DNA of 44,822 nt, taken from positions 19,275 to 64,096 of the forward strand of contig CALQZH010000001.1 in the NCBI GenBank assembly GCA_943349395.1. The letters run 5' to 3'. Origin of the DNA: Parcubacteria group bacterium. Its GTDB lineage: Bacteria; Patescibacteriota; Minisyncoccia; UBA6257; UBA11618. The position numbers and the translations under genes are program-made. Shown here piece after piece: positions 8,617 through 30,407 of this stretch (position 1 is the stretch's first letter; the number at the start of each line of letters is the position of its first letter). The notes below the pieces were generated by a model. The model did not search any database, was not told the origin of the DNA, and saw only the letters and a program-made list of their open reading frames with translations.

Positions 8617-9207
8617 TTATTTGCCGCTCCGTCCGGGTAGGACCCACCCGATGAACTCGAAATTATTGCGGTAATAGTCTTGGTTGTTGGCATTGATAAG
8701 GTTGAGCTTCGCCTTACTCTTTCCCTTGGTGATGTAATGGCCATACGAGGAAGATCTGTCGCCGAACGGGAAGAATATTCCATGATCATTCCGGTCGTAA
8801 TGAGTCGAGACGGTTACGCCATCGGGCGACGTGAGGATACCGCTCAGGCTCATCGCCTGCGCCTCGCCAAGGGGTATCTCTCTACTCTCGTTCCTCTTCG
8901 TATCATGGAGCAAGATTCGGCCGGAGTAGGTTTCGGGGTATGCGGGCCTACCATTGGCATCTAGGTATTGGGCCAAATCGACGGGACGTATGGCGAGTCT
9001 CCCGTTTTCGACGGAGTACCTTTTTTGGAGATAGTCGTTGCAACGGTAGGAGTAATCCGTGCCGGTCCCGCATGTTGCATATATGAAGTCGTAATTAGTC
9101 GAAAGGAGGAAAGAGGGCAGATATGTAGAGATGGCGAACGCGGCTATGAGCGCGACCGGTAATATGAACGCGAGGAGCAATGCGAAGTTACGTTTGATGA
9201 AATCCAT
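8617..9207 (-). CDS. membrane-anchored hypothetical protein
   Basis: MDFIKRNFALLLAFILPVALIAAFAISTYLPSF N-terminal anchor; 196 aa. Confidence 0.65.
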   Translation of the reverse strand: MDFIKRNFALLLAFILPVALIAAFAISTYLPSFLLSTNYDFIYATCGTGTDYSYRCNDYLQKRYSVENGRLAIRPVDLAQYLDANGRPAYPETYSGRILLHDTKRNESREIPLGEAQAMSLSGILTSPDGVTVSTHYDRNDHGIFFPFGDRSSSYGHYITKGKSKAKLNLINANNQDYYRNNFEFIGWVLPGRSGK

Positions 9208-28938: not shown

Positions 28939-29319
28939 TTATATGTTTTCGTAATGCCGTATGTCAAGGGTGCCGTTCCTATGGATATCGACGGCTATCA
29001 TGTCGATGCGCCATCCCCTCTCACCTACGAGTTTCGGGCGGGCGTTCGCATATGCCTCTGCTGCGCGCTTGGTCTTCCTGACTTTCGCGGCGGTCATATT
29101 ATCCTCGGGCGTTATGAAACTGTTTGACGATAAAGTCAAATCAGTGCATATGGTTTTAACCTCGACGAAGACGAGAGTTCGGTCGGGGGCGGTAGCGATG
29201 ATGTCGAGCTCGCCCCAGGTCTGGGAGTGGTTGCGCTCGACCACCCGGTATTTTTTGGCGATCAGGTAATCTGCGGCGGCATCCTCCCCTGCTTGGCCGA
29301 CGGATCGGTTCGTTTTCAT
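28939..29319 (-). CDS. UPF0102/YraN family endonuclease-like protein
   Basis: VGQAGEDAAADYLIAKKYRVVERNHSQTWGELDIIATAPDRTLVFVEVKT. Confidence 0.92.
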   Translation of the reverse strand: MKTNRSVGQAGEDAAADYLIAKKYRVVERNHSQTWGELDIIATAPDRTLVFVEVKTICTDLTLSSNSFITPEDNMTAAKVRKTKRAAEAYANARPKLVGERGWRIDMIAVDIHRNGTLDIRHYENI

Positions 29320-29384
29320 GATTTCAGTATAGCCGTATATGGCGATGTTTGCCGGCGAACACACGCCGGAATTTTAAAAGAGAA

Positions 29385-29706
29385 TGTTTCACGTTTTACA
29401 AATCGATCTGTTTTTTTGTAAATCAGCAAACACTTGAAAATAAGATTTTTTAAAAACATAGGATTGATGAGGATATCGGATTGTAATGAAAATAGAGTGT
29501 TTCACACATGGTAAAAATGTTTCACAGTCGGATATGCGCTTGGTTATTATGTTTTGATGTGTAAAACATTTTTATAAAAATGTTTTACAGTTTTGTTTCA
29601 CAGTCGGATAATGGCTCTGTTATTGATATATCCGAGTGTGAAACATATGTTTCACACGAGAGAATGTTTCACAGTGTTTTACAAAAATGTTTCACAGTGT
29701 AAAACA
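29385..29706. repeat. AT-rich intergenic array of TGTTTCACA/TGTTTTACA sites including perfect palindromes
   Basis: TGTTTCACGTTTTACA 29385; TGTTTCACA(C/G) at 29498, 29518, 29594; palindrome TGTAAAACATTTTTATAAAAATGTTTTACA 29560-29589; palindrome GTGTGAAACATATGTTTCACAC 29636-29657; several more to 29706. Confidence 0.93.
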
Positions 29707-29735
29707 GGGAAGGGTGGGGGGATTGAAGATGAAAA

Positions 29736-29782
29736 AACGCCGTCGCCTCGTCCGCCATGCGGCGGAGAGGGGACGGCGTGTA
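29736..29782 (-). terminator. terminator CGCCGTCSCCTC...GGGGACGGCG with nested CCGCCATGCGGCGG
   Basis: Long stem with T-run on the minus strand, downstream of the gene at 29811. Confidence 0.75.
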
Positions 29783-29810
29783 CGGCAAGAAGAGCGTCTC
29801 CGTATCTCGT

Positions 29811-30407
29811 TCATGTGATGAGAGGGTGACCCGTTTCCCATGTCCTCGATCGGCGGATCTCTCGCGCAATCGCGCCTATGCCTCTCGCATCGGTGAGTTG
29901 GTGCATGCGCGCGAGCAAGGCGATGCATCGGCGGCTCCTGATGCCCGGATAGTCGCGCGGGCAGACGGGCAGGGGATGGGCGTTCGGCATGCCCCATGCC
30001 CTATACGTGCGCTTGATGCGCGCGCAGTCGAAGTCGCAGGCTATGAAGTCGAAGCGGACGGTCACGGGTCGCTTGAGCGAATTCAAGAGGCGATTCGCAA
30101 GCGCGCATTCTTCGAACCTGTCCCGGGCCCGCATGAGGGCTTTGGTTTCGGGGTAGCTGGCTTGCGTGATGATATGCCGTTGCGGAATCCCGCGCGTAAT
30201 GAGCCGGGAGGCCATCACGGAGGCGATGCTCGTTTCGGGGTTCTCCTGCGGGAGGTCGAGCCCCGAGAGCAGGACGAAGATCGTTTGGGGGTACTGGACG
30301 AAGTGTCGCGTGGCTTCGGCGAGGACGTTTTCGGCGAGGGAAGAGAGTGCGCCGTGCCGATCGATCTGATTGCCGTGAATGAAGACGATCTTTCCGATGT
30401 CGCTCAT
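29811..30407 (-). CDS. DUF218/YdcF-like protein (tentative)
   Basis: IVFIHGNQIDRHGALSSLAENVLAEATRHFVQYPQTIFVLLSGLDLP...MASRLITRGIPQRHIITQASYPETKALMRAR. Confidence 0.6.
   Translation of the reverse strand: MSDIGKIVFIHGNQIDRHGALSSLAENVLAEATRHFVQYPQTIFVLLSGLDLPQENPETSIASVMASRLITRGIPQRHIITQASYPETKALMRARDRFEECALANRLLNSLKRPVTVRFDFIACDFDCARIKRTYRAWGMPNAHPLPVCPRDYPGIRSRRCIALLARMHQLTDARGIGAIAREIRRSRTWETGHPLIT

Follow-up and report, generated by a model that had tools for sequence, protein, structure and literature searches.

Clustered parS half-sites upstream of yraN as a candidate ParB-loading region in a Parcubacteria group bacterium

Introduction

Can ParB take hold of a chromosome where there are arms of parS and no parS palindrome? 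The question is raised by a short intergenic array, in the genome of a Parcubacteria group bacterium, of a nonamer built on one parS arm. Few DNA sites in bacteria are as conserved as parS, whose palindrome is regarded as the trigger of the ParB clamp; to our knowledge, CTP-dependent clamp loading has been described on full palindromic parS. An earlier note on the 44,822-nucleotide stretch of DNA analysed here (the window) had offered three functions for the array: a centromere or parS-like site, the iterons of a replication origin, or a multi-operator control region for the yraN, nusA and hppA row. In the analysis described below the first is well supported, the second is contradicted and the third is left unsupported.

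Results

A half-site repeated twelve times

The genome that holds the window (G000) comprises 622 kb in 22 contigs and is 97.6% complete. Eleven exact matches to TGTTTYACA are present in the window, all of them at 29498-29706, where shuffling predicts 0.10 for the whole window, and TGTTTCACG at 29385 makes a twelfth site; nine of the twelve are on the plus strand and three on the minus strand, bearing out the array of nonamers in both orientations within some 320 bp that the earlier note had described. The genome search which that note had proposed shows TGTTTYACA to be nearly confined to the array, with a single further copy in the whole 622 kb. Letters one to eight of TGTTTCACA reproduce one arm of parS (TGTTTCACGTGAAACA) exactly, and 8 of the 11 genomic copies of that arm, TGTTTCAC, fall within the 322 bp array. 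The gap is AT-rich, as had been noted (GC 0.495 in the 1 kb bin 29001-30000, around 0.60 nearby), and is flanked by an ORF with no Pfam match (29811-30407) and by yraN (UPF0102; 28939-29364), after which come nusA and hppA; all four genes are on the minus strand.

The array as a whole (29385-29706, unstranded) is a candidate ParB-loading centromere region. It opens with the half-site TGTTTCACG (29385-29393, plus strand), which abuts GTTTTACA; here TGTTTCACGTTTTACA agrees with parS in 13 of 16 letters, as had been claimed. Three mismatches are also the best that any 16-mer in the array achieves, and the whole genome lacks a 16-mer with two mismatches or fewer to parS. The key feature is the half-site repeated twelve times rather than this one partial match. 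An AT-rich block without nonamers (29407-29497), well conserved in the sister species G001, separates the 29385 site from the others. These begin with two plus-strand copies of TGTTTCACA at 29498-29506 and 29518-29526, the latter beginning the 31-nt repeat D4, and continue with two copies of TGTTTTACA, at 29560-29568 (minus) and 29581-29589 (plus), which are the left and right arms of the 30-nt palindrome reported earlier (29560-29589). The right arm is also in tandem, with a 13 bp period, with TGTTTCACA at 29594-29602 (plus), which begins the second 31-nt repeat. Copies of TGTTTCACA at 29637-29645 (minus) and 29648-29656 (plus) form the arms of the 22-nt palindrome (29636-29657), likewise present as reported. 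They are followed on the plus strand by TGTTTCACA at 29665-29673 and by TGTTTTACA at 29675-29683, in a 13 bp tandem with the nonamer at 29688. The array closes with a convergent dyad (29688-29706), TGTTTCAC-AGT-GTAAAACA, in which the nonamers at 29688 (plus) and 29698 (minus) present parS-like arms with three extra bases between them.

Other roles for the array were considered and rejected. A scan found no terminator within it, and three promoter-like matches where 1.1 are expected; a role as an RNA element was set aside since the array has no Rfam match. A second array motif, TCGGATA, is weak since 15 further copies occur in 137 kb of the genome.

Conservation within the genus

Between G000 and its sister species G001, the nonamer positions are 98.1% identical, the other array positions 85.0% and the whole array 89.4%; the corresponding values are 84.7% for nusA, 75.1% for yraN, 60.0% for the gap between the array and yraN, and 55.5% for the other flank. 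On this comparison, the whole array is under selection, and the nonamers most of all. The palindromes, real in the window, are not kept as palindromes in G001. The nonamers are retained there, but the 22-mer is interrupted and the 30-mer altered at its centre; the unit of selection is therefore the nonamer and not a hairpin. Conservation among genomes of the same genus was found in part: the array is retained in G001 and G002, and none is seen in G003. In the 1 kb upstream of yraN there are 12 solitary arms in G000, 12 in G001 and 6 in G002, where 0.02-0.12 are expected, and none of the three genomes contains an exact parS. The G003 assembly also lacks yraN and a match to the C-terminus of DnaA; at its contig ends neither the array nor the neighbouring genes were found.

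Canonical parS at the orthologous position

The nearest named NusA relatives of this bacterium belong to the Parcubacteria/Paceibacterota (Wolfebacteria, Harrisonbacteria, Liptonbacteria and others), with an identity of some 60%. The position of the array, in the gap upstream of yraN-nusA, is orthologous to that of canonical parS clusters in relatives of the same order. Exact parS copies upstream of yraN number seven in G004, a member of the same family, seven in G015, five each in G011 and G027, four each in G021 and G026, and three in G029; G033 has one exact parS together with hybrids. Exact parS is present in 60 of 245 genomes of the order. Outside the order, only two of 80 named NusA loci (L112 and L120) have parS upstream of nusA at a distance of up to 1.2 kb when one mismatch is allowed, and therefore the linkage of parS to nusA is a feature of only part of the group.

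Several relatives show unusual forms of the site. Hybrid parS sites that pair a perfect arm with an altered one (TGTTTGACGTGAAACA, TGTTTAGCGTGAAACA) occur in four copies each in G021 (L026) and G033 (L035), and inside-out palindromes with gapless, diverging arms (GTGAAACATGTTTCAC) are repeated beside canonical or near-canonical parS in G009 (L102) and G034 (L283). G018 (L285, L286) carries the parS variant TGTTTCGCGTGAAACA in tandem copies spaced 52 bp apart at contig ends, eight sites in total, and is another lineage with an altered centromere site. Repeated TCCGGCAAT/CCGGAAAT motifs lie in gaps adjoining the parS clusters at L028, L110 and L112. In family f9 (G014, G036 and G171-G185) just one of 17 genomes has an exact parS, and neither of the two genomes examined yielded an orthodox ParB; a joint loss of ParB and parS is possible.

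An ordinary ParB and ParA

The ParB of G000 (contig C2) is complete, with an N-terminal, an HTH and a dimerisation domain, and is encoded next to ParA; it aligns with Spo0J and with ParB of known structure, and keeps the GERR and ENxQR motifs. The parS-contacting residues of Caulobacter ParB, namely Q162, G170, K171, S172, R173, N178 and R204 (PMC7383237), are all kept. A reprogrammed ParB was rejected, as the specificity residue R173 is unchanged, and so was faster ParB evolution on the stem of the genus, that stem taking up 3.6% of the ParB tree and 3.4% of the DnaA tree by length. Most ParBs of the order have Ser at position 201, some of them in genomes with canonical parS, and this residue therefore does not explain the change of site; the frequency of Ser here is at odds with the statement that Gly201 is absolutely conserved among ParB orthologs (PMC7383237). 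Canonical parS accompanies Gly at residue 203 in 0 of 12 cases and Ala in 12 of 25. B. subtilis Spo0J likewise has Gly here, and the ParB tree offers only two supported independent pairs for the residue; once relatedness is counted, the link between Gly203 and a lack of canonical parS cannot reach significance, and it stays a lead.

Geometry of the arms

Arm geometry was surveyed in 23 regions. Abutting convergent arms, that is true parS, occur 38 times; neighbouring arms in the same direction are dominated by spacers of 4-5 bp (16 of 47), and the spacers of divergent arms are variable. Convergent arms with a 3 bp spacer were found in G000, G001, G002 and G026, the geometry of the dyad at 29688-29706 being repeated in G001, G002 and the second G026 cluster. 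Of 130 non-canonical arms, 96% are followed by a purine, as in parS. TGTTTYACR is read here as the probable 9 bp footprint of a single HTH domain.

Alternative explanations

A rival explanation is that a second DNA-binding protein reads TGTTTYACA and shares the region with ParB in the relatives, the true ParB sites of this genus lying elsewhere or being too changed. Solitary arms do coexist with full, canonical parS in G009, G021, G026, G033 and at L112, tandem pairs with 4-5 bp between the arms recur in about 11 lineages, and the ninth base of the nonamer is more commonly A than the G of parS. Set against this, the opening letters of the nonamer spell an exact parS arm, and among them are both bases by which parS can be told from the Noc site. 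The one-contig genome G036 yielded neither an orthodox ParB nor parS, and its nonamers occur at control frequency (12 versus 16); no other candidate binding protein is known. A second binder is judged unlikely.

The array lies directly upstream of yraN, as would a multi-operator region controlling yraN, nusA and hppA. Some relatives, however, have the same kind of cluster at a distance from yraN: the parS/nonamer cluster of G009 is about 17 kb from it, the nonamer cluster of G034 is 26 kb and the second of G026 10 kb away, and in G010 the parS cluster and yraN are on different contigs. A control region for this row is thus very improbable.

The replication-origin proposal, with the nonamers as variant DnaA boxes or iterons, draws on their clustering in an AT-rich gap, features that bacterial oriC (DnaA boxes and DnaA-trios) shares. 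The relaxed E. coli DnaA box is TTWTNCACA, and TGTTTCACA is one mismatch from it. The dnaA-dnaN gap, however, holds TTATCCACA, TTATCCACC and the DnaA-trio run CTACTACTACTACTATC, so that oriC-like sequence with standard boxes exists elsewhere in G000; the probable oriC is on contig C9 at 8994-9200 (L216), between dnaA and dnaN. The recognition helix of DnaA is ordinary (GKRDHTT), nonamers near dnaA are absent in all 29 genomes checked, and the GC-skew shift that the earlier note had proposed to look for does not appear, the skew remaining positive to either side of the array along its 91 kb contig. The skew of G008 reaches its minimum at dnaA, and the half-site cluster of that genome lies 92 kb away. 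DnaA boxes at a switch of GC skew were not found at the array, and oriC there was rejected. Nor does a plasmid iteron origin fit, the repeats being mixed in orientation and spacing and the neighbours being yraN, nusA, hppA and the Pfam-less ORF, not a replication initiator. There is little chance that the array is an origin of either kind.

That the array is a decaying, functionless relic of a parS cluster is suggested by the intact parS at the same place in relatives, and is scarcely credible given that nonamers and array are both more alike than yraN in the two sister species, contradicting decay.

Discussion

The preferred reading, to which a probability of about 0.7 is given, is that the array is a chromosomal ParB-loading centromere region in which parS has been replaced by half-sites. 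From the sites themselves, their near uniqueness in the genome, their conservation, their orthology with parS clusters and the ordinary ParA-ParB pair with intact contact residues, we infer that ParB binds here, that its clamp loads from half-sites and that the region serves segregation. The nonamers TGTTTYACR would be single-arm sites bound by the HTH domain of the chromosomal ParB that the cell itself encodes. The gap in the relatives carries full parS with some solitary arms, and in the genus of G000 the arms alone are left. ParB dimers could dock on several neighbouring half-sites simultaneously (tandems with a 12-13 bp period, divergent pairs, and the one convergent pair with three extra bases), raising the local concentration of ParB; the clamp would then close in a CTP-dependent manner and slide onto flanking DNA, and ParA would move the ParB-DNA complexes apart after replication.

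Counting against the centromere reading are the non-uniform spacing of the arms, the absence of a visible array from G003 of the same genus, and a ParB with no extra change on the genus stem relative to DnaA. The array and dnaA are on different contigs in G000. In seven genomes with both on one contig, parS is 3.7-44 kb from dnaA, as expected for a centromere, against 92 kb for the half-site cluster of G008, and the parS cluster of G026 sits at the turn of GC skew.

Compared with chromosomal ParABS systems, G000 shares the clustered exact arm, the ParB domains with ParA adjacent, and the gene neighbourhood of the clusters in relatives. It differs in that no palindrome with abutting arms is present, the arms being single, tandem, divergent, or convergent with three bases added, and in that the sixth base is often T instead of C. 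P. aeruginosa ParB binds half-parS, which is GTTCCAC/GTTTCAC; GTTTCAC half-sites are bound in vivo, even by a dimerisation-impaired variant (PMC10419367), and three B. cenocepacia ParBs retain 49-88% of their binding signal on half-parS (PMC5450999). GTTTCAC lies inside TGTTTCACA, so that single parS arms are common to both; whereas P. aeruginosa has hundreds of half-sites genome-wide beside functional parS, G000 has about a dozen, in a sole 322 bp cluster and with no parS. Noc-binding sites, in which 8 bp arms are likewise recognised by a ParB-family protein, differ from parS at two positions per arm (PMC7383237); the nonamers of G000 hold the parS bases at both, and its ParB keeps R173. Half-parS binding is thus already known in P. 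aeruginosa, and clustered half-sites as the sole candidate sites of a chromosome are apparently new; no description of such a chromosome was found in the literature searched, nor any account of parS or ParB in this bacterial group.

A more tentative proposal, given somewhat less than even odds, is that this is a functional centromere wholly without the parS palindrome, at which ParB loads from single or tandem arms (TGTTTYACR with a 12-13 bp period). Two abutting inverted arms would then not be needed for clamp loading; several Paceibacteria already carry the tandem element next to full parS.

A lineage retaining ParB alongside half-sites only would make both the need for the palindrome and the change of a centromere site directly testable, and the array points to the place where the chromosome may be gripped in an uncultured and very large group of bacteria.
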